A stretch of 64,000 bases of DNA from the NCBI GenBank assembly GCA_029168955.1, contig JAPDOI010001550.1, positions 1 through 64,000 of the forward strand, read 5' to 3'. Position numbers and translations under genes: made by a program. Positions 25,171 through 57,315 of this stretch are shown here, piece after piece (position 1 is the stretch's first letter; every line of letters begins with the position of its first letter). This DNA comes from Aplectana chamaeleonis (lineage: Eukaryota > Nematoda > Chromadorea > Rhabditida > Cosmocercidae). The notes beneath the pieces were generated by a model. That model did no database searches. It was not told where the DNA came from and saw nothing but the letters and a program-made list of their open reading frames with translations.

Positions 25171-25342
25171 GTCCTGCGCGCTTGCTATGCACGGCGTACT
25201 GAAGTTAAAGTTGGCGGTGAGCTCTTGTTCGAAGGTAGTGGTTAACTCGCGATGAAAACCCATTTACTACCACCCTTAGCTTTGTGAAAAGTGACGACGG
25301 ACCTCGAATTCAAATTTAGCGCCCGAAATAACCCCTAAGGAC

Positions 25343-28694: not shown

Positions 28695-29640
28695 TTTCAC
28701 ATATTTTTCCCAAAGGTTCGCTTTCTGACTTCAATTTTGCTCAACGATTTCCATTTTGGAATGATGAAACATCTAACAGACGATATTGTCGTATGAGTAC
28801 AAATTTTGAAACCTATGACTTACAACCATAAAAAATAAAACTCATTGCCGCATTTGGTGCAAAATGTGAAAAATCGATATTATTGATCATTAATATTTGA
28901 TCTTGCATGATGAGAAGAATTTCCCAAACAAATGACTTAGAGCCATCAACAATCAAAAATCATCACGGCATTTTTTGCAACAGGCTAAAAAATCAATATT
29001 ATTGATAGGTATTTAACGATAATGATTGATTAACAAAATTCCTCAACCAAGAAAACCAATCCCAAAAGCAATCACCACTGTTCGCCGCATTTTGTGCAAA
29101 AAGCACGAAAATCGATAATATTGATTATCGATCGATGACGTGTCATGAGTACGAATTCTGACAAGTTCGATACTTACCGTCGACGAACTGTGTTGATTGG
29201 CTTCGAATTCACCCACACACCCCGGTCTCCAGAGCCGTAGCAGAAAAAAGGAGTTTTCGTGCTCCACGGCTAATTCAGTATGTAAACCCACGATTTTGAG
29301 GTACCCTTCAAAGTAAAGGTATCGAGTTCAAATTCAAATAGGAGCGACCTGCATCCATTTCCAGCCTCCTGTCCAAAAATGAGCTCCCTAGCTCAATTTT
29401 ATCTGGTAGCACAAGATCGTGAACGCCGTATGAAAACTTGCGGTTTTCCAAAATTTGCTCAAATTCTAGGAAACCACTCCAGACCATTTTTTGCATGAGA
29501 TACAACTTTTTGCGCTCTTTTCAATGCAATTTAGAGCTAATTTCTACCTTCAGCCTGAACTTAGATTTCGAAAAACGGGTTGCGCGCGTGGCCGATTCAA
29601 AACCAAATCTGGTGCACACTTTGCGTGCACTAAAGTATAG
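28695..29640. repeat. Dispersed repeat, inverted counterpart of 17,270-18,297
   Basis: Reverse complement of 17,270-18,297 with many small differences. The hairpin found at 17,344-17,364 is decayed here (29,611-29,630). The end near 29,550-29,640 also matches the start of duplication copy A (about 130-215), so this repeat borders copy B. Confidence 0.8.
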
Positions 29641-30845
29641 TTCTCTCTAGGGTCAATATGACCCTGGCCTTATCCGAATTGACGCTTATCCACCCGTAAC
29701 CGGATATCTATTTGAACTCAACTTTTATTCCTGTTCTGCATTGTCAAAGCCGAATATTAAAGTGGGCTTGCAATTCAGTATATAAAATATAACGGAAACG
29801 GTAAATTCCATGACAGGAAAAATTTAATTTTCTCACAATTGGGGCAATTCCTTTCCTTTTCTCCATGCTTAGGATGCAGTTAAATTGCCAATCGACTGAG
29901 CAAATAATAAAAATTTGTGGCTAGGGCAAACCGAAAATGTCTCTAGCGTTTTTCTCTGGATTGGTCTTTTTTAACAGTAAGATATCCATTGGATCGATAC
30001 GAAAGTCTTACACGTAATTAATAGAGCTCCAATATAGTTGGCCGTTAACTACATACTACACCGCTCGTAGGATTTGGTCAGAAAACGAGCGAAGTCGGGT
30101 TTTCCTTCTTTTTTGTCTTTCTTGTATAACTCGCTTCAAACTCGACTTTGAGCGAAACTAGGGTGATATTCACGATCCTGACCTTGAGTGCTACTCACCA
30201 GAATATATCAGACGATTAAAAATTATCGAATATTCGAATAAACGAATTATTCGTAAAATGGACTTCTCCGAATATTCGTATAAACGAATTATTCGAAAAA
30301 TTGACTTCTCCGAATATCTGAATAAATGAATTACTCAAAAAATTGACTTTTCGAATAGTCGAATGAATGAATTATTCGAGAAATTGAATTTTCCAAATAG
30401 TCGAATATACGAATTTTTCGAAAACTTGACTTTTCCGAACAATCGAATTATTCGAAGGATTCGAATACGAATAATTTGAATATTTGGCCAAAATCGCGAG
30501 TATTCGAATTAGAAGTACGGATCGAGTACGCATAATCGAACCCCCGTTTGCGGCACCACCAACTTTCTTGATATTTTTTGTATACTATGGTATAAATCAA
30601 AGCTAAGCCTATGAACTTCCATAAACAAGACATTCTACATCATATAGCACGAAAGTTATCAAACTGAAAAAGTTTCTGGAACAATCTGTTCAGGACCTAC
30701 CAGAGCAGACGGAAATCAGTATCGATTACTTCCGTCCATAAATTCGGGGGTGATGGTCGTAATGTATTCCAGCCGCAGGAGAGGCGGGGGGAACTCCGGG
30801 TTCCTTCCGATCACGCGCACCGCTCATCCCCCGTTGTTTCACCTC
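29550..30845. repeat. Segmental duplication, copy B part 1 (partner about 130-1,845)
   Basis: Direct match to copy A part 1 without the MITE at 765-1,033. The uninterrupted site is the AACTAGGGTGATATTC stretch near 30,149. Apart from a longer ATTCG array it is about 20% shorter than copy A through scattered small gaps. Confidence 0.85.
30228..30436. repeat. ATTCG minisatellite, 42 bp unit, five units
   Basis: Units start at about 30,228, 30,270, 30,312, 30,353 and 30,395, i.e. 42, 42, 41 and 42 bases apart. Each has GAATATTCGAATAAACGAAT-like sequence then TTGACTT. Confidence 0.9.
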
Positions 30846-31076
30846 TCTCACGGTTGGAGTACATTAAAACATTACAACCAACACATGAAAAGTGGCGCTG
30901 AGCGAGATACTCTACCATTAGGTTCCTGAATATCTCATGTTGAATATTGCAGTATTCTGATTATATTCGAACTTTCTACCAGCTTGATTGGAGACATATA
31001 ATCTCTGGATTGCAAAGATGGACCTGCGCCGGAGACTCTGCTACCCATTTTCCTGAAATTATTCGTTTATTCAGCC
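30846..31076. other. No recognised feature
   Basis: Short stretch between copy B part 1 and a second ATTCG array. No gene or repeat is recognised. Confidence 0.5.
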
Positions 31077-31260
31077 GAATATTCGAATAAACGAATTATT
31101 CGAAAAATGGACTTCTTCGAATATTCGAATAAACAAATTATTCGAAAAATTGACTTCTTCGCATATTCGAATTAACTAATTGATCGAAAATCTGACTATT
31201 ACGAATAATCGAATAATTCGAATATTCGATTGTTCGTTTATTCGGCCGAATATTCGTTTT
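31077..31260. repeat. ATTCG minisatellite, 42 bp unit, about three units plus remnants
   Basis: Units start at 31,077, 31,119 and 31,161 (42 bp each), nearly identical to those at 30,228-30,436, and degrade into ATTCGAATATTCG-type sequence up to about 31,260. Confidence 0.88.
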
Positions 31261-37595: not shown

Positions 37596-37711
37596 TTAAG
37601 GCTACATCAAGACCTAATAATGCAATAAATAAATGTTTTCCACGGAAGCAGACGAAAACAACTCTCCTACGACAATGGCACCGAATGTTTGTTCAATGGC
37701 TGAACGTTCAT

Positions 37712-38225
37712 TAGCGCCCTTAGGGTACATAGGTGCGGTTTCGGGCATGAAAACCACATCTAGTAATTGACTATCCGGATGTGAAAACGCACCCAAAGTT
37801 TCATGGACGCAGCTTTAAGCCGAACAGCGCTACATAGGTTGGGGTCCATGAGAAAGTCGATAGCTGTGAAATATTTCCAAGTATTTAACGAAATTTGAAT
37901 TAGAGCGTTTCGCATAGCTACAACGTGCGGAAAACCCAGTCACGGGCCCAAGTAATCAATTTCATTCTTTTACCCGGTTAAAAACGGTCTTTGAAGACCC
38001 ATTTTTAGGTGTGATACAATCGATTGTATCCCACCCAAATCCATACAAATTAGGTGTGATACAATCGATTGTATCACACCTAAAAATGGGTCCTCAAAGA
38101 CCGTTTTTAACCGGGTAAAAGAATGAAATTGATTAATTGGGTCCGCGACTAAGTTTTCCGCACGTTCTCAAGGAGTCGGGGGGTTCTATTCGGCCGCGAT
38201 AGGATTTTGACTCGACTACAAAGCG
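37712..38225. repeat. Left arm of inverted-repeat element (right arm about 40,685-40,968)
   Basis: CATGAAAACCACATCTAGTA and AAACGCACC at the outer end, and TCGGGGGGTTCTATTCGGCC at the inner end, have complements in 40,685-40,968. This arm is split by a palindromic element at 37,923-38,165. A further inverted pair (GTGTCGAATATGCATTCAAC near 38,476 and its complement near 40,280) lies inside. Confidence 0.75.
37923..38165. mobile_element. Near-perfect 243 bp palindrome
   Basis: ACGTGCGGAAAAC and GTTTTCCGCACGT form the ends. The arms continue through TTTTACCCGGTTAAAAACGG, and each arm includes the self-complementary TGATACAATCGATTGTATC. It interrupts a sequence whose inverted partner near 40,740 is continuous (GTTGCAACAACTC in complement), so it is an insertion. 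A target duplication is not obvious. Confidence 0.85.
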
Positions 38226-39105: not shown

Positions 39106-39830
39106 ATGCGCTCTCTCTCTCTGAGTCTCACACGTTTTCTGCGGCGTCCAACGCTTCCTTTTGGGTCTCACACACTTCCTACGGCGCGATCTCCTCGGGT
39201 CTCACACATTTTATGCGGGGCCCCTAGCACTCCCACCTGGGTCCCGCACACTTTCTACGGCGACCGGCGCTCTCCGCACTTGGTTCCCGCACACTTTCTA
39301 CGGCTGCCGGCGCACTCTCACTCGGGTTCCGCACACTTTCTACGGCGTCCGGCGCACTCACTCGGGTCCCGCACACTTTCTACGGCGTCCGGCGCACTCA
39401 CTCGGGTCCGCACACTTTCTACGGCGTCCGGCGCACTCTCACTCGGGTCCCGCACACTTTCTACGGCGTCCGGCGCACTCTCACTCAGGTCCCGCACACT
39501 TTCTACGGCGTCCGGCGCACTCTCACTCGGGTCCCGCACACTTTCTACGGCGTCCGGCGCACTCACTCGAGTCCCGCACACTTTCTACGGCGTCCGGCGC
39601 ACTCTCACTCGGGTCCCGCACACTTTCTACGGCGTCCGGCGCACTCTTACCTGGGTCCCGCACACTTTCTACGGCGTCCGGCGCACTCTCACTCGGGTCC
39701 CGCACACTTTCTACGGCGTCCGGCGCACTCTCACTCGGGTGCCGCACACTTTATACGGCGTCCTGCGCACTTCCACTAGGGTCCCACACACTTTCTACGG
39801 CGTTCTGCGCGCTCTTGAGCCCGTACCCGT
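39106..39830. repeat. GC-rich minisatellite 1, 42 bp unit, about 16 units
   Basis: The unit contains GTCCCGCACACTTTCTACGG followed by CGTCCGGCGCACTC. Period 42 with a few 40-43 bp units. Its complement is the same family as 45,238-46,670. Several frames stay open for 220-240 codons because 42 is a multiple of three; these are not genes. Confidence 0.95.
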
Positions 39831-39873
39831 AAGGTAGCCCGTCTTGAAAGTCAAGCCGAATAAACGGTCAAAC

Positions 39874-39945
39874 AAACACACAGAGAAACGCACACATACA
39901 TAAACACACACACGCACACACAAATTTACCAAAATATATATAGTA
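39874..39945. repeat. (CA)n-rich microsatellite
   Basis: CACACA-rich sequence interrupted by CATACATA and ending in a short TATATA run. Non-coding. Confidence 0.8.
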
Positions 39946-40684
39946 GGATTACAGCACGTGCGCCAACAAATCAGCCGTCCAATGCGGGCATGATACACAT
40001 TCAACTCGATGACAAGAACGATTATCCAAATTGGGGTATTTCACTCACCCGGCCGCTGGAAGCCTCGTCCAATCGCTGACGACCCCAGATGGTGCTCGGC
40101 GAGCTGACCACGTCGCACGTCGGTGTGCCACCCGTGTCGCGTGTGTGCGCTGCTACGATAGCGCTGGACTACCTTGCAGCACGTACTCCTGCAATTGAAT
40201 TTTGCGGCACATGCTCCTGCTATAAAATTTTGCTGCTGTTTGGAGCACGTACCCCTGTGATTAAGCCTTTCGATGGGTGTGGTCACTCGAGTTGAATGCA
40301 AATTCGACACGCATTGAATGCGGTGGTTTTCTGAGTATTTAAGGGGCCCGATCCCAGAGAGAGTCCGCCTTTCGGGGCTGCTCCTGGAAGGTGACTACGA
40401 GTCACTTTCTGGACGATTTTTGAACCGTTAAGGTGTCTTTCCCACGGTCCACAGCAAGGGATGGTCCCTCGCTGTCGACCGTGGCGAGAGTGATGTCCCT
40501 GTCGCGGACTGCTGTGGGGGTGATCCTCTGCTGCGGGCAGTGACTTGGACCGTATCCTTATTGGGGGAGACCCGCTCCCATCGAAGGGGTGGGGGCCTGC
40601 CCCCAGCGCCACGTAGTCCTATCGAACTGACCACGTGCTCCTCGAAGCAGCACGCGCTGCTGCAAAAGGTCCTTTCAACTCGAC
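39946..40684. other. Interior of inverted-repeat element; GC-rich GACCG(C/T)GGCGA motif
   Basis: No gene is supported. GACCGTGGCGAGAGTGATG near 40,478 resembles GC-rich blocks at 41,862-41,945 (complement), 58,430-58,500 and 60,020-60,090. Words of the type CAGCACGTAC and GGAGCACGTACCCCTG are repeated at 40,178 and 40,240. Confidence 0.5.
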
Positions 40685-41105
40685 TAGGTACCCGAATAGA
40701 AAGCCTATCGTGGCCGAATAGGACCCCCGAGTCCCTGAGTTGTTGCAACGCGAAACTCCCTAATTAGAAATTCGATAAATACTTGTAAATATTTCACAAC
40801 AATTCCGAACTTGATCATTTTTTCATGGACCCCACCCTATGTAGCGCTGTTCGGCTTAAAGCTGCGTCCATGAAATTTGAGGTGCGTTTTCACATTCGGA
40901 TAGCCAATTACTAAATGTGGTTTTGATGCCTGAGATAGCACATATGGGCCCTCAGGGCATGAAAACAGGCTCCGCCCACCCTATGTAGCGCTGCTCGGAT
41001 ACAAGCTGCATCCATGAAACTTTGGGAGCGTTTTCACACGCTGAAATTCGTATTCAAAATGTGTGTTCCGCGCCCGCAACCGCTCCTATGTGCCCTGATG
41101 GCGTG
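40685..41105. repeat. Right arm of inverted-repeat element plus ~145 bp tandem copy
   Basis: 40,685-40,968 is the inverted partner of 37,712-38,225. The block CACCCTATGTAGCGCTG(T/C)TCGG followed by GCATCCATGAAACTTTG-like sequence occurs at about 40,828 and again at about 40,976, so the outer part is tandemly duplicated once. Confidence 0.75.
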
Positions 41106-41594
41106 AAAATCTAAAGGCGATTTCATTAAGGAAATGGTAAGAGATATCACAGTGAACAACGCTCTTTTGTGACAGTCATCTATCCATCGTTTTACAGCTT
41201 TGCAAAATTTTTATATTTGGCGGGATCGAACCTGTGAACTCTAAGTCGGCTAAGAATGCATCTTAGATTACGAAATACCAGAACATCTGTGTATTTCGTT
41301 GAGAGGATAGTACGCTTGTAATGACCTCGATGACATCGATTACTTAACACCGCTGCTGCTGACATGTCCAGGAGCGCTTTGGCGACATATTTTGCCTTTC
41401 CAAGACTCCTGCTCTATGTCAGAGTCATTAACGATGGCCGTGCTACCGCCGTCTATTGTCTTGCATGCGTGTTCCTGCCTCATTTTTACATCCCCATTTC
41501 ATATCTTGCCGCATTTGTTTTTTCGCCAATGGTTCTCACTACTTAGTTTCCTTTTTGATCTCCTGTCTCATTTTGCTCTCTCAGTATAATCCCA
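41106..41594. other. No recognised gene
   Basis: About 490 bases without a supported feature. A tRNA-like look near 41,217 (GCGGGATCGAACCTG) was tested and rejected because the stems do not pair. Confidence 0.55.
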
Positions 41595-42307
41595 GACAGT
41601 CGGGGCTTAGCACGTCGGCACAACACCGTTAGTACGCCAGGGCAAACCTGGCATACTAACGCTCGTTGTGTGCAGGAGCTGCTGGTTGCGGCAGCATATC
41701 CTGCCAACGTATGCTGGCATACTAACGCTCGTTGTGTGCAAGAGCTGCTGGTTGAGGCAGCATATCCTGCCAACATATGCTGGCGTTCTAACGCTCATTA
41801 TCGACAAAATTTGAACTGCCACTGTCCTTACCGGTGTTGGATATAATTCTTGTCACGGCCAGCAGCAAGGAGAACATCCTCGCCGCGGTCCGCAACCAGG
41901 AGGCTTCCCTCGCGATGAGCGATGGGGATGACCCCTCAGCGTTCCAAAGATTAACGCCCGAACAGTGACACAAGGTCACCCCATCGGACTGGCCTCAAAC
42001 GGCCAACTGTCCCCTCAGCGAGACTGGCCGCATTATATACCCGCCGCCGTCGTACAAGGGGATGCTGCAATGTTCATTCGTATTAGACAAATCAATGGAA
42101 GAGTGTCAGCAGACATTAGGAGAGAGTGGCTGGCAATAGCACGCGTGCCACGATAAACAAAGCGTTAGTACGCCAGCACAAGCAACAGGAGCTCCTGGTC
42201 GTTGCCAGCATATCCTGCTGTTACCAGCAGCTACAGCACAGGTGCTGCCGATCCCTTTGTGCCGGGGTACTAACGGTATTGTGCCGACGTACTAAGCCCC
42301 GACTGTC
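41595..42307. mobile_element. 713 bp TIR element with internal duplicates
   Basis: Terminal inverted repeats of about 45 bp start GACAGTCGGGGCTTAG and continue ACGTCGGCACAA, CCGTTAGTAC. Inside the left end a ~75 bp block (TAACGCTCGTTGTGTGCA, GAGCTGCTGGTTG, CAGCATATCCTGCCAAC) is repeated twice, with a related block near the right end. The central part (41,862-41,945) carries the GC-rich GACCGCGGCGA motif in complement. No transposase and no clear target duplication. Confidence 0.8.
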
Positions 42308-42424
42308 CGAGATCTCCAGTTTTATTTTGACCTCTTATTGTGATCTCATTTTGCCGTCATTTTTTATACTAAAGGTATGGTTCTCAACCCGCCCCCCCTC
42401 CGGCCCGATAGAAGTCCATCTTGT

Positions 42425-43556
42425 TCCTTAGGGGTGTGCAGGACGTCGTAGAATGTGTCCTACTGAGGTCCTGCACACATTCTACGACAACCTGCACACC
42501 CCATTAGGGGTGTGCAGGACGTCGTAGAATGTGTGCAGGACCTCAGTAGGAGTGTGCAGGACCTTAGTAGGAGTGTGCAGGACATCATGGGACCTGTGCA
42601 GGACCCCACTAGGGGTGTGCAGGACGTCATAGAATGTGTGCAGGACCTCAGTAGGAGTGTGCAGAACCTCAGTAGGAGTGTGCAGGACATTATGGGACCT
42701 GTGCAGGACCCCAGTAGGGGTGTGCAGGACGTCATAGAATGTGAGCAGGACCTTAGTAGGAGTGTGCAGGACATCATGGGATCTGAGCAGGACCCCAGTA
42801 GGGGTGGTGCAATACCTCAGTAGGAGTGCGCACGACATCATGGAATGTGTGCAGGACCCCAGTAGGGGTGTGCAGGACGTCGTAGAATGTGTGCAGGACC
42901 TCAGTAGGAGTGTGCGGGACCTTAGTAGGAGTGTGCAGGACATCATGGGACCTGAGCAGGACCCCAGTAGGGGTGGTGCAAGACCTCAGTAGGAGTGTGC
43001 AGAACATCAAGGAACTTGTGCAGGATCCCAGTACGGGGTGTGCAGCACGTCATAAAATGTTTGCAGGACCGCAGTAGGAGTGTGCAGAAAATCATGGAAC
43101 GTGTGCAAAACCTTAGTAGGAGTGTGCAGGACCCCAGTTGGGGTGTGCAGGACGTCGTAGAATAAGTACAGAACCTCAGTAGAAGTGTGCAGGACCTTAG
43201 TAGGAGTGTGCAGGACCCCAGTAGGGGTGTGCAGGACGTCATATAATGTGTGCAGGACCTCTGTAGGAGTGTGCAGGACCTTAGTAGGAGTGTGCAGGAC
43301 ATCATGGGACCTGTGCAGGACCCCAGTAGGCGTGTGCAGGACATCATGGGACCTGTGCAGGACCCAGTAGGAGTGTGCAGGACGTCGTATAATGTGTGCA
43401 GGACCTTAGTAGGAGTGTGCAGGACATCATGAAACGTGTGCAAGACCCCTGTAAGGATGAGAAGGACTTCATGGAATGTGTGCAGGACCCCACTAGGGGT
43501 GTGCAGCACGTCATGGAATGTGTGCTGGATCTCAGTAGGAGTGTGCAGAACCTCAG
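42425..43556. repeat. GC-rich minisatellite 2, 21 bp monomers
   Basis: Tandem 21 bp monomers start GTGTGCAGGAC and alternate between endings such as CTCAGTAGGA, GTCGTAGAAT, CCCAGTAGGG and ATCATGGGAC. Most of the array advances by 21 or 42. The first ~70 bp contain inverted monomers. Open frames of up to 188 codons on both strands are by-products. Confidence 0.95.
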
Positions 43557-43598
43557 TTTAATTTTCAGGACACCGTATGCAAGCCAGGCCTCCGAATC

Positions 43599-43922
43599 AA
43601 CAAGAACGATAGTTAAGTCCGCCAGAACAGGGCTACCGTAATCTCACTCGAGTTGGCTCTGAAATTTTCTAAGTTCTGACTCCGAATTCGCTTCATCTTC
43701 CCTACAGGTGGTGACGTTTTCCTGCTTTGTAGTCCAGGCAGATACTCAACTGCTAACCTCTGGAGAAGGATGGTGTGTGAATCAAGACACACCGCTCTTC
43801 ACTTCTTTTATACTTTACCCTTGGTCAATTTTGTATCATCCAATTTGTTTACGAGAGTCGAATAACATTATTCCTAAGATTACGGTAGCCCTCTTCTGCC
43901 CCACTTAACTATCGTTCTTGTT
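43599..43922. mobile_element. ~325 bp TIR element
   Basis: ACAAGAACGATAGTTAAGT and GGGCTACCGTAATCT at the left have complements at 43,873-43,922 in the right order, giving inverted repeats of about 45 bp. The interior has no recognisable gene. The target duplication is unclear. Confidence 0.8.
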
Positions 43923-44000
43923 CCGAAATAGACTTATGGGCCGGCGCAGACGAGCCACATCAGCATGAACCGGTGAAGTTTGGCTAGAGCGGCTGACCCT

Positions 44001-44374
44001 GGGTCTATCCTAGATGTGGTGGGGCCACCCAAGATTTGCTCATAGAAATGATGAAAAAGTCTGATAAAAGATGCCTGATACTGCGCTATCAATCAATGTT
44101 TTTATTAGAGCTCTATGGAATTAAACTCTGGTACCGCCGTAGTGACCTGTTGATTTCGATTATCACAGCGCGGAGCGGTGGCTTTTTCGTCGGAACCTCC
44201 TTATCACTAGTTATATTTCACCGAGGCCCACCGCGCCGCTGCTGGTATTGATCGAAATCAACAGGTCACTACGGCGGTACCAGAGTTTACTTCGACTGGT
44301 AGCCGTACCAATTGGCCGTTCATTTCATTTCTGTGTTGAATGGTGCGTGCCCCCCCCCCGTCTAGAATAGTGCC
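44001..44374. mobile_element. G/C-run fold-back element with nested palindrome
   Basis: The left end GG(G)TCTATCCTAGATG(T)GG pairs with the right end, which in complement reads GGCACTATTCTAGACGGG. A C run at 44,351-44,359 lies inside the right end. The ends match the element at 51,290-51,492. The palindrome at 44,124-44,287 is inserted in its middle. Confidence 0.7.
44124..44287. mobile_element. 164 bp palindromic TA-type element
   Basis: AACTCTGGTACCGCCGTAGT and its complement form the ends with TA on each side (44,122-44,123 and 44,288-44,289). Arms are over 40 bp and almost perfect, indicating a young insertion. A decayed relative lies at 4,940-5,100. Confidence 0.85.
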
Positions 44375-44519
44375 TAGAACCTGTACAACTGGGTCATTTT
44401 AAAACTCATTCCCTTTTTCGACTTTTAAATTCAAAAAGTAGATGCCTTGTATCTTCTTTGTAGGAAGTCGCGTTGCAACTATTATCTTGCAGTCTTAGCA
44501 GCGGTGCGGTTGTTTCTTC

Positions 44520-45060
44520 ATTTCTACCACTGTTTTCGAAAAAAAAAACAACTTGACTTTTAGAGCTTGACGATATTGTAGAAGGGAAACCCTTGGAAAA
44601 AGTTGTGAAATTTCTGAAAGTTGGGCTCCGCAGAAAAGGTCAAGGATTTGGCATTGCTCTAAAATGTCGTGAAATTGTGGTGAGCGCGAAGCGCTCACCA
44701 GATTTGGCTTTGATTCGCCATCGCGCAACCCCCTGATCTCAGTATCAGGGTCCAGAGTAAACGTAGGAAGACCTTTCTTTTTGCATTTAGTACACATTAG
44801 AAAGGTGAATAACTGTAAAAAAATGGTCCGAAATGGTTACCTGAAATTGGAGAAAAAGTGTCAAAACCACGTCATTTTGGTCGAAAAAATGTTCATCTCC
44901 TTTTTTTTCAGTTGGCGTTCACGATCTTGTTGGAACACTTATCTTTGAGCTAGAGAGCTCATTTTTGGCCAGGGAGCTGGTTTTGTTTGCACCTAGCTCC
45001 TGTCAAATTTTGAAGTTGGTAGCTCAATTTTTGCGGAACCTCAAAATTGAGGGTAAAGAA
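44520..45060. repeat. Dispersed repeat with GAA-loop hairpin, second member
   Basis: Related in the same order to 17,300-17,700: hairpin at 44,679, then AGATTTGGCTTTGA, a CTTTTTTTTCAG tract near 44,900, GTTCACGATCTTGTTGGAAC and GAGCTCATTTTTGGCCAGG. The part just before the hairpin matches 57,249-57,315 in complement. Confidence 0.75.
44679..44699. other. Perfect hairpin, 9 bp stem, GAA loop
   Basis: Stem GGTGAGCGC and its exact complement around GAA. Compared with 17,344-17,364 one base pair (C-G to A-T) is changed on both sides, so pairing is kept. AGATTTGGCTTTGA follows. Confidence 0.85.
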
Positions 45061-45237
45061 AGACAAAAACACGTAAACATGTTATTAAAAACCAACCGAT
45101 GTTTGCTTATTCGTGAAAATGAACTAGTGAAATAAACACCGTTACTGATAGGCTTTTGCTCAGGATTTGACGGGGCAACGCTTCAATCAATACGGCGGGA
45201 TCTCGGAAGTACTTTTTGAAACGCCGCACGGTGTGAC

Positions 45238-46670
45238 TCAGAAGTGCGCCACAGAACGCCGTAGATACTGTGCGGGACCCCAGCAGGAGTGCGAATGACG
45301 TCGTAGAACATATGTGTGACCAAAGTAGGAGTGCGCCGGACGCCGTAGAAAGTGTGCGGGACCCAAATGGGTGTGCGCAGAACGCCGTAGAAAGTGTCTG
45401 GGACCCAAATGGGTGCGCGCAGAACGCCGTAGAAAGTGTGCGGAACCCAAGTGGGAACGCGCCGGACGCCGTAGAAATTGTGCGGGACCCAAATGGGTGT
45501 GCGCAGAACGCCCTAGAAAGTGTGTGGGACCCAAATGAGTGTGCGCCGGACGCCGTAGAAAGTGTGCGGGACCCAAGTGGGAGTGCGCCGGACGCCGTAG
45601 AAAGTGTGCGGGACCCAAAAGGGTGTGCGCAGAACGCCCTAGAAAGTGTGTGGGACCCAAATGAGAGTGCGCCGGACGCCGTAGAAAGTGTGCGGGACGT
45701 AAATGGGTGTGCGCAGAACGCCGTAGTAAATGTGTGGGACCCAAAAGGGTGTGCGCAGAACGCCCTAGAAAGTGTGTGGGACCCAAATGAGAGTGCGCCG
45801 GACGCCGTAGACAGTGTGCGGGACCCAAATGAGAGTGCGCCGGACGCCGTAGAAAGTGTGCGGGACTCACGTGGGAATGCGCCGGACGCCGTAGAAAGTG
45901 TGCGGAACGCAAATGGGTGTGCGCAGAACGGCGTAGTAAATGTGTGGGACCCAAATGGGTGTGCGCAGAACGCCGTAGAAAGTGTGCGGGACCCAAATGG
46001 GTGTGCGCAGAACGCCCTAGAAAGTGTGCGGGACCCAAATGGGAGTGCGCCGGACGCCGTAGAAAGTGTGCGGGACCCACGTGGGAGTGCGCCGGACGCC
46101 GTAGAAAGTGTGCGGGACCCAAATGGGTGGGCGCAGGACGCCGTAGAAAGTGTGCGGGACCCAAGTGGGAGTGCGCCGGACGCCGTAGAAAGTGTGCGGG
46201 ACCCAAATGGGTGTGCGCAGAACGCCCTAGAAAGTGTGTGGGACCCAAATGAAAGTGCGCCGGACGCCGTAGAAAGTGTGTGGGACCCAAATGAGAGTGC
46301 GCCGGACGCCGTAGAAAGTGTGCGGGAACCAAGTGGGAGTGCGCCGGACGCCGTAGAAAGTGCCGGACCCAAATGGGTGTGCGCAGAACGCCGTAGAAAG
46401 TGTGCAGGACATCAGTGGGAGTGTGCAAGATGTAACAGAATGTGCGCTGGACATTAGTGGGAGTGTGCAGGATGTCATAGAAAGTGTGCAGGACATCAGT
46501 GAGAGTGTGCAGGACTATAGTGGGAGTGTGCAGCACCTTATAGAAAGTGTGTAGGACATCAGTGGAAGGGTGCAGGACATCAGTGAGCGTGTGCAGGACG
46601 TCATAGAAAGTGCACAGGCTATCAGTTGGAGTGCGCAGGACGTCATAGAAGGGGGGGGGGCAGGACTTCA
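45238..46670. repeat. GC-rich minisatellite 3, 42 bp unit, over 30 units
   Basis: The unit contains GGACGCCGTAGAAAGTGTGC and GGGACCCAAATGGG, with variants GTGCGCCGGACGCC and GTGCGCAGAACGCC. Each unit is two related 21 bp halves. To the right of about 46,400 the units drift towards the form of minisatellite 2 (GTGTGCAGGACATCAGTGGG). Frames stay open for 395-482 codons on both strands; the 14-residue periodic products are not credible proteins. Confidence 0.95.
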
Positions 46671-46743
46671 GTGGGTTTACTTTCATCTAACACCACCAGG
46701 CATGAATCATGTTAGAAAGGAAACCTTTAGGAAAATAAAATGA

Positions 46744-47173
46744 AATTCCTGAAAGTCTAGGTTCCTGGCAAAAGTTAAGATTTGGCATGGTCATAAAAAT
46801 ATACTCAGTTGAAAAGGGAAAATAAAGAAAAATGAAAAAAGGTTTTGAAATATTCCTGAGAACGATTTGGCGTAGAATAATTTGTTTTTCGGGAAATGAA
46901 GTGAAATAGTTGAAAGTATGATTTGGCAGTCGAGTTTGAACCAACTATTGATAAGAGTTGTGCAAAACGAGGGATCGCATTGTATGAGCTTATCCGTAGA
47001 ACATATCAAAGCGAAATCACGCGTGAAATGGCGAAGCATCAAAACCTTTTCGGGAGCTGTAATGCGGCGGTCTTCACGTATTAGGTGAAGCAAAATCAAT
47101 ACGCGTGATTTCGCTTTGATATGTTCTACGGATAAGCACAGACAAGGCGATCTCTCGTTTTGCACAACTCTTA
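46744..47173. mobile_element. Palindromic element, TTTCTGAAAATTTAG-related family, right arm truncated
   Basis: The left arm (CCTGAAAGTCTAGGTTCC, TTTGGCGTAGAATAATTTG) matches 56,397-56,592 in complement. The inner palindrome pairs GATAAGAGTTGTGCAAAACG (46,951) and CGAAATCACGCG (47,021) with complements ending at 47,173. The outer right arm is missing: at 47,174 a different repeat begins. Confidence 0.75.
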
Positions 47174-47176
47174 TCG

Positions 47177-47199
47177 CTCCAGCCGCGAAGCGGCTGGAG
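47177..47199. other. Perfect hairpin, 10 bp stem, GAA loop
   Basis: Stem CTCCAGCCGC and its exact complement around GAA, followed by AGGTTTGGTTTTG. It lies at the very edge of a dispersed repeat. Confidence 0.88.
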
Positions 47200-47383
47200 A
47201 GGTTTGGTTTTGCCTAGGCCTTGTGATCACTTATAATTTTATAAAATAGTTTATAGAATCTTTGGAACAAAATTTCTGAAGATTTCCTCCTGGATATAAG
47301 TGAAGGGGTCCAGAAGACATCTGCTGTCCGAATTTCAGCCAAATCGGTTCACAAACAACAAAGTTATGAGCCCGAAAGCTTAA

Positions 47384-47769
47384 AGGCATCGTACACGATG
47401 AAAACCGAATTCCAGCAAAGTTTGGAGTTCCGAAATCGCCTCTGAACGGAGATCTACTAACCTGAAAAAGACTGTTGTTACAACTCCGTGGTCGCTGCCG
47501 GCGATCGTGCGTTGACGCGTCGTAGGGCGCACTTTCACATGCCACTGATTTCTCGTTCGGTATCGATCGAAAGCAGCTGACAGCAATGGACGCAGCAGGT
47601 TAGTAACCCTTTTCAGTTTCGCTGAAGAAAAAAGATCGCTCGTCGATGGCATCCTCGGTGAATTGCTTCCGACGCTGCGCCAAGATGTCGGCGGGAATTT
47701 CAGAATTTGTATTAAGCTTTCTTGAAATGGGTTTTTCTTGAAAAGTTGACGTTTTTGAGTACGATGCCT
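47384..47769. mobile_element. TTAA-target MITE, AGGCATCGTACACGATG subfamily, copy 2
   Basis: Begins AGGCATCGTACACGATG and ends GTACGATGCCT between TTAA at 47,380-47,383 and 47,770-47,773. The partner repeat at 50,420-50,440 reads CCCGAAAGCTTAAGAAAACT with one TTAA, a clean empty site. Homologous to 19,851-20,432. Confidence 0.95.
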
Positions 47770-47815
47770 TTAAGAAATTTTCATGGTGTGCGCCGTAGGC
47801 CGTGAGCGTCATCAG

Positions 47816-49305
47816 GACGTCGTGAAAAGTGCTTCGGGCTTCTGATGGAGTCATCGGGACATAGTGAACAGTGCTTCGGGCTTCTGATGGAGTCATCGGG
47901 ACATAGTGAACAGTGCTTCGGGCTTCTGATGACGTCATCGGGACGTCGCGAAAAGTGCTTCGGGCTTCTGATGACGTCATCGGACGTCGTGAAAAGTGCT
48001 TCCGGGCTTCTGATGGAGTCATCGGGACATAGTGAACAGTGCTTCGGGCTTCTGATGACGTCATCGGGACGTCGCGAAAAGTGCTTCGGGCTTCTGATGA
48101 CGTCATCGGGACGTCGTGAAAAGTGCTTCGGGCTTCTGATGGAGTCATCGGGACATAGTGAACAGTGCTTCGGGCTTCTGATGACGTCATCGGGACGTCG
48201 CGAAAAGTGCTTCGGGCTTCTGATGACGTCATCGGGAGGTGGTGAGAGGGCTTCGGGCTTCTGATGAGGTCATGGGGACGGCGTGAACAGTGCTTCAGGG
48301 GCTTCTGATGACGTCATCGGAACGTCGCGAAAAGTGCTTCGGGCTTCTGATGACGTCATCAGGACGTCGTGAAAAGTGCTTCGGGCTTCTGATGGAGTCA
48401 TCGGGACATAGTGAACAGTGCTTCGGGCTTCTGATGGAGTCATCGGGCTTCTGGTGACGTCATCGGGACGTCGCGAAAAGTGCTTCGGGCTTCTGATGAC
48501 GTCATCAGGACGTCGTGAAAAGTGCTTCGGGCTTCTGATGGAGTCATCGGGACATAGTGAACAGTGCTTTGGGCTTCTGATGACGTCATCGGGACGTCGC
48601 GAAATGTGCTTCGGGCTTCTGATGACGTCATCGGAACGTCGCGAAAAGTGCTTCGGGCTTCTGATGACGTCATCAGGACGTCGTGAAAAGTGCTTCGGGC
48701 TTCTGATGACGTCATCGGGACGTCGCGAAAAGTGCTTCGGGCTTCTGATGACGTCATCAGGACGTCGTGAAAGTGCTTCTGGCTTCTGATGACGTCATCG
48801 GGACGTCGTGAAAAGTGCTTCGGGCTTCTGATGACGTCATCGGGACGTCGCGAAATGTGCTTCGGGCTTCTGATGACGTCATCGGAACGTCGCGAAAAGT
48901 GCTTTGGGCTTCTGATGACGTCCATCAGGACGTCGCGGGCTTCTGATGGAGTCATCGGGACATAGTGAACAGTGCTTCGGGCTTCTGATGACGTGATCAG
49001 GACGTCGCGAAAAGTGCTTGAGCTTCGTGACGTCATCGGGACGTCGTGAAAAGTGCTTCGGGCTTCTGATGGAGTCATCGACATAGTGAACAGTGCTTCG
49101 TGCTTCTGATGACGTCATCGGGACGTCGTGAAAAGTGCTTCGGGCTTCTGGTGACGTCATCGGTACGTCGCGAAAAGTGCTTCGGGCTTCTGATGACGTC
49201 ATCGGGACGTCGTGAAAAGTGCTTCGGGCTTCTGATGACGTTATCGGGGCGTCGCGAAAAGTGCTTCGGGCTTCTGATAACGTCAAAGGGACGCCGTTCG
49301 AAGTG
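47816..49305. repeat. GC-rich minisatellite 4a, 42 bp unit, about 35 units
   Basis: The unit contains GTGCTTCGGGCTTCTGATGA, CGTCATCGG and GACGTCGTGAAAA. Three variants (CGCGAAAA, CGTGAAAA and CATAGTGAACA) alternate, giving a 126 bp higher-order pattern in places. The start, ACGTCGTGAAAAGTG, resembles the core of minisatellite 3. Open frames on both strands are by-products of the period. Confidence 0.95.
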
Positions 49306-49496
49306 CATAGGACTCTAAACGAATACATTTTTTTAGCTGTACTTGGATAAGGAGAGAGTGCCGTTTCCGATTCACAAAATACTTCCATGCAGGCCACCAC
49401 AACGATTTATTTTGGTGGTTAGAAGTTTTAGCCCAAAAAATCGCTTTACGAAATTTCACTATCAGTCTTTTGTTCCTTCTTATTGTTAGGGGTCAC
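49306..49496. other. No recognised feature
   Basis: Short spacer between minisatellite 4a and a fold-back element; nothing recognised. Confidence 0.5.
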
Positions 49497-49943
49497 TCAT
49501 ACTCCTAACCTCCCGCTCAGCCAGGGCGGTCCTTGCGAACGAAGAGGAAAGTGAATATGAATGGGATTTCATTCCTCCGCGCATCAAACCCCTACCGCCC
49601 CCCCCCCCACCGCCACAGCGTGCCTCTGGAGTGATTCATACTCCACTCAAGATTAATTTATGAGAAATGGAATTTTCATCCTGTATCAGATATCTATTAG
49701 CATTATCAGTCATTGTTTACACAAGAACTTGACAGAAAACGTTATCTCTCACAGCGGTGTCATTCATTACTCACTTGAAATCTGAGTGACCACCATCGTC
49801 CCTTCCGCTCCGTCATGACGGTGACGCTGGAGCATTCGTACTTCACCGGAGGAGCGGGAAGGGCAGGAGGGGTGAATTCTATTCATACTCACCTCTTTGA
49901 CCGAGCGGACCGCGCTGGCCGAGAGGTAGGTTAGGAGTATGAA
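49497..49943. mobile_element. Fold-back element with internal C run
   Basis: CTCATACTCCTAACCT at the left pairs with AGGTTAGGAGTATGAA at the right, and GCGGTCC near 49,526 with GGACCGCGCTGGCC near 49,907. A C run lies at 49,600-49,609. Inner segments (CATACTCCACTC and TGGAGCATTCGTAC) form a further imperfect inverted pair. The boundaries are approximate. Confidence 0.65.
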
Positions 49944-50223
49944 TGAATCTTATCGAGTCACATATCCGGAAAAAAACATTCTTTACGCCGGCTGAACACA
50001 CAGGCCAACCTCTCGAGAGGAAACACTAATTCAGACAGTATCTATGTTGCACCACCTGTGCACAGAATTTGGCTAGAGAAAGTTCAAAAGTTCTTGATTT
50101 GAATTCTCAAATCGAACGTTTCTCTATAGTATGGTACGTATCTTAACTCCAGGATACCGCGTTGGAATTATTATCACGCTATCTTGCGGTCGGAGTGGTT
50201 GTTTTACACTCAAACAATACAAA
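49944..50223. other. No recognised feature
   Basis: About 280 bases, AT-leaning, no repeat or gene recognised. Confidence 0.5.
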
Positions 50224-50460
50224 TCGCTCCAGCCGCGAAGCGGCTGGAGAGGTTTGGTTTTGCCTAGGCCTTGTGATCACTTAGAATTTTATAAAATAGT
50301 TTATAAAATCTTTGAAACGAAATTTCTAAAGATTTCCTTCCGGATATAAGTGAAGGGGTCCAGAAAACACCTGCTGTCCAAATTTCAGCAAAATCGATTC
50401 ACAAATAACAAAGTTGTGAGCCCGAAAGCTTAAGAAAACTTCATGGTGTGCGCCGTAGGC
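50224..50460. repeat. Hairpin-ended repeat, copy 2
   Basis: Uninterrupted counterpart of 47,174-47,383 plus 47,770-47,815, with a hairpin at 50,227-50,249 identical to the one at 47,177. The left flanks of the two copies differ up to the base before ATCGCTCC, which defines the repeat's edge. Confidence 0.88.
50227..50249. other. Perfect hairpin, 10 bp stem, GAA loop
   Basis: Stem CTCCAGCCGC with exact complement around GAA, followed by AGGTTTGGTTTTG, identical to 47,177-47,199. Confidence 0.88.
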
Positions 50461-50583
50461 CGTGAGCCGTAGGCCGTGGGCCGTAGGCCGTGGGCCGTAG
50501 GCCGTGGGCCGTAGGCCGTGGGCCGTAGGCCGTGGGCCGTGGGCCGTGGGCCGTATGCCGTGGGCCGTGGGCCGTAGGCCGTC
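50446..50583. repeat. GGGCCGTAGGCCGT tandem repeat, 14 bp (2 x 7 bp)
   Basis: About ten units of GGCCGTA and GGCCGTG heptamers in alternation. It expands a GCCGTAGGCCGTGAGC seed that is also present unexpanded at 47,791-47,808. Confidence 0.92.
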
Positions 50584-50706
50584 ACGCTTTTCAGTCCTCA
50601 CTGCTAATAGCCACTGCCAATGGTCTCAGGCAATCAACTTGGCAGACAGGTAAGTTGGTAGGAGGTACGTAGGCTGGTAAGTAATCGATTTGTAGGTGAG
50701 GGGGGA

Positions 50707-51289
50707 TTCTGATGGCATCATCGGGACGTCGTGAAAAGTGCTTCGGGCTTCTGGTGACGTCATCGGAACGTCGTGGAAAGTGCTCCGGGCTTCTGATGAC
50801 GTCATCGGAACATCGTGAAAAGTGCTTCGGGCTTCTGAGGACGTCATCGGAACGTCGTGGAAAGTGCTTCGGGCTTCTGATGACGTCATCGGAACGTCGT
50901 GGAAAGTGCTCCGGGCTTCTGATTACGTCATCGGAACATCGTGAAAAGTGCTTCGGGGGCTTCTGATGACGTCATCGAAACGTCGTGGAAAGTGCTTCGG
51001 GCTTCTCGTGACGTCATCGGGACGTCGTGAGAAGTGCTCCGGGCTTCTGATGACGTCATCGGAACGTCGTGGAAAGTGCTTCGGGCTTCTGATGACGTCA
51101 TCGGAACGTCGTGGAAAGTGCTCCGGGCTTCTGATTACGTCATCGGAACATCGTGAAAAGTGCTTCGGGCTTCTGATGACGTTATCGGGACGTCGCGAAA
51201 AGTGCTCCGGGCTTCTGATTACGTCATCGGAACATCGTGAAAAGTGCTTCGGGCTTCTGATGACGTTATCGGGGCGTCGTGAAAAGTGC
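50707..51289. repeat. GC-rich minisatellite 4b, 42 bp unit, about 14 units
   Basis: Same family as 47,816-49,305, with frequent variants GAACGTCGTGGAAAGTGCTC and GATTACGTCATCGGAACATC. It resumes at 51,493-51,538 after the fold-back insertion. Confidence 0.95.
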
Positions 51290-51492
51290 GGGACTATCCT
51301 AGACGGGTGGGGGCACACAAGATTCAAGTCAGAAATGGAATGAACCACCGATCTATAACGCTATCAATCGAAGTATTTCTACAGAACTTCATCAACAACC
51401 ATGATTGATAGCAGCATCAAACATCTTTTAACAGGTTTTTCATTCATTTTCATGAGAAAATCGTGGGCGCCCCCCCCGTCTAGGATAGTCCC
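51290..51492. mobile_element. G/C-run fold-back element inside minisatellite, perfect 8 bp target duplication
   Basis: Ends GGGACTATCCTAGACGGG and its exact complement. The flanks are AAAAGTGC at 51,282-51,289 and AAAAGTGC at 51,493-51,500. The neighbouring minisatellite units read GTGAAAAGTGCTTCGGG without interruption, so the target is known exactly. 203 bp, palindromic, non-coding. Confidence 0.93.
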
Positions 51493-51538
51493 AAAAGTGC
51501 TTCGGGCTTCTGATGACGTCATCGGGACGTCGTGAAAA
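51493..51538. repeat. Minisatellite 4b, remainder after insertion
   Basis: One further unit of the 50,707-51,289 array, beginning with the duplicated AAAAGTGC. Confidence 0.9.
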
Positions 51539-51539
51539 C

Positions 51540-51830
51540 CCGGATAGTAGGCAGGTTTTCGGGACCCGTTGCTGGTCATCCAAAAAGTTGTGAAGACCAC
51601 CCCGTAGAGTGAGCAGGAGCCCAGACTCGATGCTAGCCATCCGAGAAATTATACAGGATACCCCAAAGAATCAGCAAGAGTCTTGAGCTTTCCGCTAGTT
51701 GTCTCAGATAGGGTGCTGGATGCCTCGAAATTTGCGCAGGAGTACGAGAACACCTTGCGAAACTTCTGCAAAAGTGTAAGGATGACAAGCATAGCGTGCA
51801 GAAAGCTTGAGATGTTATGCAAGTCATGTC
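51540..51830. repeat. Decayed tandem repeat, about 62 bp (near 3 x 21)
   Basis: GTTGCTGGTCATCCAAAAAG, GATGCTAGCCATCCGAGAAA and CCGCTAGTTGTC start successive blocks about 61-62 bases apart. GAGCAGGAGCCCAGACTC and CAGCAAGAGTCTTGAG fall at the same place within blocks. Probably an old relative of the 21 bp monomer arrays. Confidence 0.5.
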
Positions 51831-52249
51831 AGGTCATGTTGCCAGGCTGCTCTTCAGTTTCGTAACGCGCTGAAGCCATTCACACAATCCCATTTTGAGT
51901 GCTCCCTCAATCTTCTTCACCAGCCTACTGATTTTTTCTACGATAAATGGTACTTGTTTATCAGCATCTAAATTCAACAACAAATTGTTAGAACTATCAC
52001 CATTCGCAGCTCAGCAGAGCTTTTTCATATCAAATCCATGGAATCGAAGCGGCTGTTCTGCGAAGTAATGGGGCGGCAGAAACGAAATAATGAGTATGGA
52101 AAAAGGCTTCGTTCCACTAATATGAAAGTGTCCAAATGTAATGGAAGGTAGTTTCTGACTGTGCAGGTTTTGAGTTATGTAGTTTCATTCGCAAGCGAAG
52201 AACTGTGGGCAGATTCTGCATCCGGCTGTAGGCCAGCAGGCTTTCCTGA
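51831..52249. other. No recognised feature
   Basis: About 420 bases; no gene or repeat recognised. Confidence 0.55.
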
Positions 52250-52510
52250 CTATCGACCGGGCTGGCTACGTCTGAGCAAATCACTGTAACCAGCCTAAGG
52301 CCCCTGTCAGAGTTGGTTGAGAAAATCACCGTGGCCGACCCGTTTGATACGTATGAAAAATATGGAAGGTCCAAATAACACCCGGTGTAACCAGATGTGG
52401 CTGACGCGATCAATATGAATGAATTATGTGGAACGATATCATGGATATCATTCATTTCTTAGCTAATATCATGTGAACATCGGTCTTGTCAGCTACATCG
52501 AGTGATTTTT
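52250..52510. mobile_element. Fragment related to the TIR element at 62,668-63,178
   Basis: AAGGCCCCTGTCAGAGTTGG, TTGAGAAAATCACCG and CATCGAGTGATTTTTCTGAG correspond to AAGGCCCCGGTCAGAGTTGG, TTGAGAAAATCACTCGG and CATCGAGTGATTTTTGC of 62,668-63,178. The order is altered and the ends are unclear, so it is probably a rearranged relative. Confidence 0.6.
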
Positions 52511-52595
52511 CTGAGATAGTTTTACAACAGTTTGGGTTCTTTGTTCGAAATTCTTGCATGGGATATTACAACGTAATATCAAGAAAAAGTGAACA

Positions 52596-52852
52596 ATTCT
52601 CAAAAAAGGGGTCTTCCAAGCAGAAGTGGTTTGGTCTGCGTTACAAAATGTTTCAACAAAAAGGGAACAATAGGAAAGTGGAATGAGGAGAATCTACAAA
52701 AAATGAACAATATCCTCTAAAAACTCTTTTCTTTTTCGAAACTTTTAAACAGCAGAAACAAACCGTTGTGGTATTTTACAAGGAAGAATTGAATGGTTTC
52801 CTAAAACAATTTGACATCATCTCCTCTTTTAATGATCGCTTTTAGGTACACA

Positions 52853-52857
<5 letters not shown>
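52596..52857. mobile_element. Left arm of palindrome that hosts the retrotransposon
   Basis: Near-perfect inverted copy of 56,133-56,393, e.g. AAAAAAGGGGTCTTCC at 52,602 and GATCGCTTTTAGGTACACAT at 52,833. With the retrotransposon and (TA)n removed it would be a ~550 bp fold-back element with a TA-rich centre. A second TA-rich palindrome of this kind would explain why both flanks of the insertion end in (TA)n. Confidence 0.88.
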
Positions 52858-52889
<32 letters not shown>

Positions 52890-52896
52890 TATATAG

Positions 52897-52988
<92 letters not shown>

Positions 52989-52989
52989 T
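52857..52989. repeat. (TA)n tract, left side
   Basis: TA run with interruptions (AGTATATAGTT and a CTA) up to the (CTTA)n junction at about 52,988. Confidence 0.93.
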
Positions 52990-56393
<3,404 letters not shown>

Positions 56394-56396
56394 CAA

Positions 56397-56592
56397 TAGT
56401 TGGTTCAAACTCGACTGCCAAATCATACTTTCAACTATTTCACTTCATTTCCCGAAAAACAAATTATTCTACGCCAAATCGTTCTCAGGAATATTTCAAA
56501 ACCGTTTTTCATTTTTCTTTATTTTCCCAACTGAGTATATTTTTATGACCATGCCAAATCTTAACTTTTGCCAGGAACCTAGACTTTCAGGA
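56397..56592. mobile_element. Arm fragment of the 46,744-type palindromic element
   Basis: Complement of 46,744-46,955: AATAGTTGGTTCAAACTCG, CTACGCCAAATCGTTCTCAG, TTTTGCCAGGAACCTAGACT. Only one arm is present; the next base pairs belong to another palindrome. Confidence 0.8.
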
Positions 56593-57249
56593 ATTGTTCC
56601 ATTAGATTTGGCTATCAAACTGATTTCCTAAATGTAGTGACATTATTGAATCGATTTGGCTGTTGTTGGTATATGCAGATAACATAATCATTAAATGTAG
56701 TGAAACTGTTGCAAACGGATTTGGCAGGAGCTCTGAATTATCACAGTCAAATCACGCGTCAGAAAGGGTTTTTCTTGAAGCGCATATTGAATAGAATGAG
56801 AACAAAAATAAGTCTAGCAGCAAAAAGTTTCCATACAATGTCAACCGTTAAAGCGTTGAGGACACGAAGACATAGCGTCAGTAGCTAATAAATTGCGTTA
56901 GATTTCGTTTTCGTGATTTTTATTTAATTGGTGAGGGAAGGTCTGGTACTACACTGAAAAGGCAGAATAACATTCGAAAACCTTATTTCTAGCCCATAAG
57001 GCCGCGTTTCGTTCAGCATTGCTAATTGAGAAGTAGCTTTTTCTTTTTGTGTTTATTTGCTGGGCCAGAGGACCTTCTGACGCGTGATTTGACTGCGATA
57101 ATTCAGAGCTCCTGCCAAATCCGTTTGCAACAATTTCACTACATTTACTGATTATGTTATCTGCATATACCAACAACAGCCAAATCGATTCAATAATGTC
57201 ACTACATTTAGGAAATCAGTTTGATAGCCAAATCCAATGGAACAATTTC
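56591..57249. mobile_element. 659 bp palindromic element
   Basis: GAATTGTTCCATTAGATTTG (56,591) through TCAAATCACGCGTCAGAAAG (about 56,747) has its complement in 57,070-57,249. Arms about 175 bp, loop about 300 bp. The words CAAATC, TGTAGTGA(C/A)A and CCAAATCGATT recur inside each arm. No coding sequence. A short piece of the hairpin-repeat family (complement of 44,620-44,680) follows at 57,249-57,315. Confidence 0.85.
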
Positions 57250-57315
57250 ACGACATTTTAGAGCAATGCCAAATCCTTGACCTTTTCTGCGGAGCCTAAC
57301 TTTCAGAAATTTTTA

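Follow-up and report, generated by a model that had tools for sequence, protein, structure and literature searches.

Minisatellite arrays with 42-bp units, probably spread by non-autonomous transposons, in the nematode Aplectana chamaeleonis

We analyzed a stretch of 64,000 nucleotides from the nematode Aplectana chamaeleonis (NCBI GenBank assembly GCA_029168955.1, contig JAPDOI010001550.1, positions 1 to 64,000 of the forward strand; hereafter the window), in which five minisatellite arrays are crowded between positions 39106 and 51538. An earlier interpretation, made from the letters of the DNA without database searches (the sequence-only reading), had united all five into one superfamily built on a 21-bp half-unit and a 42-bp unit. 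Our data support such a superfamily for three of the arrays, here designated family A, and indicate that the other two represent one family (B) of doubtful kinship to the first. The arrays, their parts, and a decayed relative elsewhere in the window are the following:

39106-39830, minus strand: array 1, family A, 42-bp units (basis: Tandem Repeats Finder [TRF], consensus, core matches)
about 39310-39763: homogeneous core of array 1; 39106-39308: its decayed edge (basis: per-unit mismatches)
42425-43560, plus strand: array 2, family A (basis: TRF, autocorrelation, monomers)
45238-46398, plus strand: array 3, family A, 42-bp alpha-beta dimers (basis: TRF, autocorrelation, consensus)
46399-46690, plus strand: array 3R, the edge at which array 3 diverges and its wording comes to resemble that of array 2
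47805-49310, plus strand: array 4a, family B, 42-bp units
50700-51289, plus strand: main part of array 4b, family B (basis: TRF, consensus)
51493-51538, plus strand: last unit of array 4b, past an inserted miniature inverted-repeat transposable element (MITE)
24818-25200: decayed member of family A (basis: profile search, E down to 9.8e-10)

The arrays are real and advance by 21 or 42 bp, as had been described. TRF returned periods of 42 bp for arrays 1, 3, 4a, and 4b, of 21 bp for array 2, and of 21/63 bp for 3R. Lag 42 was the top autocorrelation by z-score in all six stretches (1, 2, 3, 3R, 4a, and 4b), with the identity of 3R at lag 63 being marginally above that at lag 42. Lag 21 was elevated in all six as well (identity 0.39-0.63 versus 0.26-0.29 by chance), and lags 20 and 22 were either under chance or exceeded it by no more than 0.05, the biggest excess being that of array 4a (0.31 and 0.30 versus 0.26; z 4.3 and 3.6). 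Exactly 42 bp were measured in 100 of 118 units (10/14 in array 1, 20/24 in array 2, 26/27 in array 3, 5/5 in 3R, 27/35 in array 4a, and 12/13 in array 4b), where the lengths in array 2 rest on an alignment whose 24 inserted bases are partly balanced by 22 deleted ones. Such head-to-tail units of constant period above chance identify these sequences as minisatellites. The first part of array 4a (47807-48447) has a higher-order period of 126 bp; array 2 is composed of several types of 21-bp monomers without strict 42-bp alternation, and its left edge (42425-42520) is palindromic when folded (z -8.6).

Both 21 and 42 are multiples of three, and open frames of up to 482 amino acids run through the arrays, which might thus encode a repetitive protein; long gene-like frames are lacking in the window. 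However, several phases are open on both strands, as expected from a repeated stop-free unit of 3n bp, and arrays 1, 2, 3, 4a, and 4b all contain units whose length is not divisible by three. One frame from array 3 and one from array 4 were used as protein queries and scored against the 7995 candidates with most words in common; neither gave a homologue (at E ≤0.001 and at E ≤1). We therefore dropped a coding role, which we hold to be almost certainly wrong. No tRNA and, at gathering thresholds, no Rfam family was found in the window, and exact pattern scans of viral and other genome contig collections gave 0 matches, worm DNA being expected in neither of them.

A core sequence had been thought common to all five arrays, and exact matches to it occur in four of them. 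The exact core GGACGYCGTRRAAAGTG occurs 34 times in the window versus 0 times in 100 shuffles: array 3 contributes 13 copies, array 4a 10, array 4b one, and array 1 another 10, all of them on the minus strand; the exact scan of the window found none in array 2. Array 1 is inverted relative to the other arrays.

Kinship was assessed by ungapped comparison of 42-bp consensus units in all rotations and on both strands, with 1000 shuffles as the control. The consensus sequences of arrays 1 and 3 agree at 38/42 positions, that of array 2 agrees with array 1 at 27/42 and with array 3 at 28/42, and that of 3R agrees with arrays 1, 2, and 3 at 32-33/42; each of these values lies beyond all 1000 shuffles. 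3R is intermediate, with 33/42 to array 2 and 33/42 to array 3, in keeping with the proposal that the right edge of array 3 grades into the wording of array 2. Since the single 21-bp consensus of array 2 reaches only 12/21 against those of arrays 1 and 3 (p 0.12 and 0.11; not significant), the case for family A is carried by the 42-bp units and by profiles. In nhmmer profile searches across the window, for which 20 shuffled windows served as the control, the array 1 profile matched array 3 at E 1.2e-24 and array 2 at 4.5e-13; the array 3 profile matched array 1 at E 4.6e-23 and array 2 at 3.2e-13; and the array 2 profile matched array 1 at E 1e-8 and 3R (46486-46566) at 1.3e-17. The units of the decayed member at 24.8 kb lie on the plus strand to about 25040 and are inverted after that point. 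Judged from these similarities, kinship within family A is secure, and the descent of arrays 1, 2, and 3/3R and of the 24.8-kb fossil from a common 21-bp ancestor is supported.

Arrays 2 and 3 had been described as built of two related 21-bp halves, and this proved correct for arrays 1, 2, 3, and 3R alike: their unit halves agree at 12-15/21 positions (shuffle p ≤0.0032), with the array 2 unit assembled for this comparison from two of its monomer types. Half-unit identity in family A comes to 24-30/42, each pair being counted twice, versus 11-12 expected. When 237 monomers of 21 bp were cut and clustered by average linkage, the alpha halves of arrays 1 and 3 grouped together, as did their beta halves, and array 2 fell near beta and 3R; the halves of array 4 clustered apart from each other and from the remaining monomers. 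A tree was built from 102 distinct gapless monomers, excluding within-array duplicates and gapped ones; with 21 columns, 63 of its 94 inner branches are unresolved, and the bootstrap did not converge. It rejects the single-clade hypothesis for array 1 (p value of the approximately unbiased test, p-AU, 0.003) and array 3 (p-AU 4e-13); single clades of array 2 (p-AU 0.27), of array 4 (0.47), and of 4-alpha with 1/3-alpha (0.55) are not rejected. Similarity across arrays 1, 2, and 3 is thus above that of shuffles, and the clustering by array that would have spoken against a superfamily is absent for arrays 1 and 3. Half type requires 8 changes on the tree versus 25 for array; because the tree rejects array clades and half type fits, the alpha-beta pair is most likely older than the split of arrays 1 and 3.

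Arrays 1 and 3 decay toward their edges. Core units of array 3 carry 1-6 mismatches to the consensus, against 8 and 11 in the two units at its left edge and 7-17 at its right edge (3R, from 46386 on); in array 1 there are 0-3 in the core, 7-13 at one edge, and 6 in the last unit at the opposite edge. Old edges around a homogenised dimer core resemble in form the centromeric arrays of higher-order units. Array 4a has three badly aligned internal units (13-14 differences) and no edge gradient.

With a 4a-to-4b consensus identity of 41/42, arrays 4a and 4b are, by this measure, one second family. Local duplication in place could have derived all five arrays, array 4 included, from one ancestral 21-mer, and several comparisons lean this way. 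Array 4 and family A have in common a local 17-bp core with 14/17 identities in one register and strand sense, and 3R matches 4a at 23/42, beyond all 1000 shuffles. The 4-alpha half-units are 57-64% identical to the alpha halves of arrays 1 and 3, at least as close as alpha and beta are to each other there (49-56%), and weak matches of the array 1 profile (9 in 4a and 6 in 4b) exceed the one found in the 20 shuffled windows together, repeated units not being independent. Trees that keep array 4 together as one clade, or that unite 4-alpha with 1/3-alpha, are not rejected; the monomer tree neither joins array 4 to family A nor separates it. However, family A profiles reach array 4 with E 0.15-0.19 at best, and their top score of 7.8 bits equals the best of the shuffled windows; the second array 4 half is only 32-45% identical to family A. 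The halves of array 4 are themselves barely related (9/21 for 4a, p 0.047; 8/21 for 4b, p 0.10). Across all 42-bp comparisons, array 4 agrees with family A at 20-23/42, with p from 0/1000 (3R-4a) to 0.09, and single 21-bp consensus sequences give p 0.047-0.60. In four comparisons for each array, the p values of the local core are 0.0025-0.18 (4a) and 0.10-0.51 (4b) versus 400 shuffles, and 0.015-0.165 (4a) and 0.10-0.445 (4b) versus 400 real 42-mers of the window. Because profile scores reach only shuffle level and the p values of the core are mixed, we grade the tie of family B to family A through this one core as suggestive only. The single ancestral 21-mer is thus supported by profiles, halves, and tree for arrays 1, 2, and 3/3R, and is possible but not demonstrated for 4a and 4b. 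Seeding of all five arrays in place, which must also accommodate the inverted array 1 between its inverted arms and the copies of one element that adjoin 4a and 4b (see below), appears rather unlikely to us.

A scan of the window at lags 12-120, which excluded stretches dominated by shorter lags, detected 15 periodic regions, as compared to 0 in three block-shuffled controls; in eight of the regions 42 was the commonest best lag, and arrays with lags of 22, 30, 66, 14, 116, and 119 are also present. Among these regions, the AT-rich 42-bp arrays at 19154-19473 (array C) and at 30227-30448 and 31076-31244 (array D) are unrelated to A or B (p ≥0.32); the two parts of array D are one family (40/42), perhaps related to array C (p 0.02 and 0.10). 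The 42-bp period occurs in at least two unrelated lineages; with two lineages and several other periods present, coincidence is a plausible cause. Since unrelated arrays share this period, the period alone is not evidence of common origin. About 370 bp away from array C is an element resembling a MITE (19847-20436); it has inverted ends of 46 bp and is related to the TTAA-flanked MITE described below. Close to array D is one of a pair of related element stretches (194-764 and 29619-30160).

The sequence TGACGTCA, which we take to be a CREB/ATF site, occurs 30 times in the window (0.87 expected), and all copies lie within array 4 (47930-51521; 22 in 4a, 8 in 4b), 25 of them inside the 12-bp palindrome GATGACGTCATC. 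Through its palindrome, an 84-nt stretch of array 4a folds as a single strand better than shuffles (z -4.1); corresponding stretches of array 3 (z -0.6) and array 2 (z -0.4) do no better than shuffles. The sequence-only reading had pointed to the four helical turns in 42 bp, and such spacing could have been selected by a protein bound on one helix face, e.g., a transposase that recognizes internal repeats or a bZIP factor that recognizes TGACGTCA. The sharing of 42-bp units by the unrelated arrays C and D lends this idea a little weight, as do the frequency of lag 42 among the periodic regions, the constancy of unit length, and the confinement of TGACGTCA to array 4; a precedent is the foldback-like transposon Galileo, whose tandem repeats are stated to contain extra transposase binding sites (PMC4079207). 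The idea loses a little through the arrays with other lags in the same window. Moreover, array 4 units lacking TGACGTCA (wording GATGGAGTCATC) were amplified as well, exact unit length is also expected from recent amplification, and should A/B and C/D represent no more than two lineages, a coincidental period seems not rare (a judgement, not a computed value). Selection for spacing is accordingly an improbable explanation. A bolder version, in which a sequence-independent rule of this genome favours four-turn units on non-autonomous transposons and array 4 acts as a mobile cluster of TGACGTCA sites, spaced 42 bp apart along one helix face and able to recruit a CREB/ATF-type factor at any point of insertion, strikes us as very unlikely. 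It is conceivable that array 4 has spread TGACGTCA in the manner of Caenorhabditis Helitrons with heat-shock elements; the arrays are most likely selfish, and we infer that they have no host function.

Mobile elements lie next to most of the arrays:

37707-37924, plus strand: left inverted arm around array 1
40739-40963, minus strand: right inverted arm around array 1; a second tandem copy reaches 41109
44678-44700, plus strand: perfect, GC-rich hairpin (stem 10, loop GAA) that opens a dispersed element (44674-45054), upstream of array 3
46953-52595: composite block holding arrays 4a and 4b, absent at the matching site 56392/56393 of an inverted copy
46953-47172: foldback MITE between the block boundary and element U copy 1
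47173-47383, plus strand: element U copy 1, tipped by a hairpin (47177-47199)
47384-47769: MITE in U copy 1, with TTAA target duplication (47380-47383 and 47770-47773)
50223-50433, plus strand: element U copy 2, tipped by a hairpin (50227-50249)
51290-51492: MITE splitting array 4b, with 18-bp perfect terminal inverted repeats and the 8-bp target duplication AAAAGTGC

The arms around array 1 are identical at 188/213 positions (37707-37924 versus the reverse complement of 40739-40963), long inverted arms of this kind being characteristic of foldback transposons. The copies of element U are 197/211 identical (93%) and share a perfect hairpin (stem 10, loop GAA) at their start; after each of them comes a family B array, with one orientation in both cases. 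Copy 2 represents the uninterrupted version of the site at which the MITE inserted into copy 1. The hairpin of the array 3 element follows the design of that in element U. Five GC-rich hairpins were found in the window; four mark the start of an element, and three of those lie upstream of an array. We do not claim that one family of hairpin-tipped elements underlies both array 3 and array 4, since the bodies show no clear likeness (local scores 22 and 21). A 7/14-bp array (50448-50582; GTGGGCC GTAGGCC) lies in the interval from U copy 2 to array 4b, and similar wording begins at the corresponding place beside 4a. At 43985-44372, right of array 2, there is an element whose ends, by eye, are like those of the MITE splitting array 4b, and which contains a second inverted-repeat element (44118-44293).

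The surroundings of arrays 3 and 4 exist in a second, inverted copy about 4 kb away. The segments 44608-44678, 46744-46952, and 52596-52987 correspond in reverse complement, at 97-99% identity, to 57312-57242, 56595-56392, and 56393-56003, respectively, and the inverted copy is continuous at 56392/56393, where the other carries 5.6 kb with 4a and 4b. We favour a gain of this block by insertion because the block begins on the left exactly where the foldback MITE ends. Array 3 sits between the first two segments; at that point the inverted copy carries a different insert, about 650 bp long (56592-57247), so that an empty site for array 3 is not claimed. This insert is a foldback element whose 173-bp arms are 98% complementary, with AATT at both ends by eye, which may be a target duplication. 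A plain tandem duplication of 4a/4b is ruled out by their right flanks, which gave zero matches to each other in a self-BLAST at E 1e-6 (a listing that omitted pairs wholly inside arrays). To the right of 4b, 51538-51800 shows weak periodicity (lag 62, z 5.2; lag 21, z 4.4) and is possibly a decayed array. The inverted segments bracket a reverse-transcriptase stretch with (AT)n on either side, and 44608-57312 looks like a young palindromic element with a central retroelement. The open frame at 53231-54373 (minus strand) contains a reverse transcriptase domain (PF00078) and matches 603 proteins; among the best 120 of these 603, 115 are named Necator americanus, the first match is 74% identical across 89% of the query, and the top identity in this set, 78%, spans 39%.

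Mobile elements beside the arrays, which the sequence-only reading had not noted, explain their local clustering better than does seeding in place within 12 kb, the notion of that reading. Family A also extends outside of the interval given there, to the member at 24818-25200. Taken together, we think it probable that these are transposon-associated minisatellites spread by non-autonomous transposons. Several observations weigh against this conclusion. For none of the five arrays could we delimit an entire carrier, bounded by two ends and a clean target duplication. Array 2 lies between MITE-like inverted repeats found by self-BLAST (41589-41709 with 42200-42313; 43599-43644 with 43877-43922) and is not visibly inside an element; its carrier was not delimited. 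U copy 2 is separated from 4b by the 7-bp array plus about 120 bp, and another copy of the array 3 hairpin element (17339-17711) has no array in the TRF list. Deletion with a 2-bp microhomology (AT), instead of insertion, could explain the absent block, and the parallel offered by array D is weakened by 1460-1569, which matches it (91/104) but whose own 42-bp period is not significant. Tandem arrays and inverted copies are also prone to misassembly; the window contains zero N, however, and target duplications around MITEs as well as graded edge decay would be unexpected from misassembly, so that we regard an assembly artefact as highly improbable.

We infer from this arrangement the role of the hairpin-tipped elements as vehicles, together with an order of events and a mode of amplification. 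A 21-bp motif would first have formed monomeric arrays, a state retained in array 2, the edge 3R, and the 24.8-kb fossil. One alpha-beta monomer pair may then have turned into the 42-bp unit, which unequal exchange or slippage would have amplified and made uniform, giving arrays 1 and 3. The other 42-bp family, 4a/4b, adjoins a hairpin-tipped element and would have been copied together with it, and transposition, inversion, and nested insertion could have brought the arrays into 12 kb. Stages of what may be one process would thus stand side by side, from monomeric 21-bp arrays and the amplified 42-bp dimer to decayed edges, an inverted copy, and a fossil, and the region would be a compact illustration from nature of the way in which transposons may seed satellites and disperse them in holocentric worms. 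Should the preference for 42 bp prove true genome-wide for unrelated sequences, a helical-phase constraint on satellite units would be directly testable.

Element U has a terminal or subterminal hairpin, as do Helitrons and Helentrons. Helitrons end at their 3' side in CTRR; by eye, this motif is absent just beyond the hairpin of element U, where the outward letters are CGAT in both copies. The second end of the element is not defined, and no helicase or replication protein was found among ten frames scanned in the window. The comparisons that follow draw on parts of the cited papers. In Helitrons and Helentrons, a hairpin near one end is likewise combined with a tandem array inside or beside the element, and arrays occur in different orientations and also outside of elements (PMC12628747, PMC9071541). 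Caenorhabditis Helitrons are reported to spread repeated transcription-factor sites, namely heat-shock elements for which HSF-1 binding was measured (PMC6927752); the repeated site here is TGACGTCA, a putative CREB/ATF site. Many satellites are scattered through the genomes of holocentric nematodes as well (Subirana and Messeguer, PMC3634726), and the strongylid Nippostrongylus has long complex tandem repeats, some of them transposon-associated as here, in another species and with other units (e.g., 171 bp; PMC5765664). The 21/42-bp family was not met in the parts of PMC3634726 and PMC5765664 at hand, and nothing in the titles and abstract openings of open-licence papers pointed to this 42-bp family. 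In the Tetris foldback transposon of Drosophila virilis, source of the TIR-220 satellite, internal tandem repeats seed longer arrays (PMC4079207). Its unit of about 220 bp resides inside the terminal inverted repeats and its target duplications measure 8-10 bp (PMC4079207); the window, in contrast, has 21/42-bp units, array 1 lies between arms and not within them, and no target duplication of a carrier was found, the ends not being delimited. What the two systems would have in common is a foldback-like, apparently non-autonomous element, modular and rearranged copies, and repeats that seed arrays (PMC4079207).

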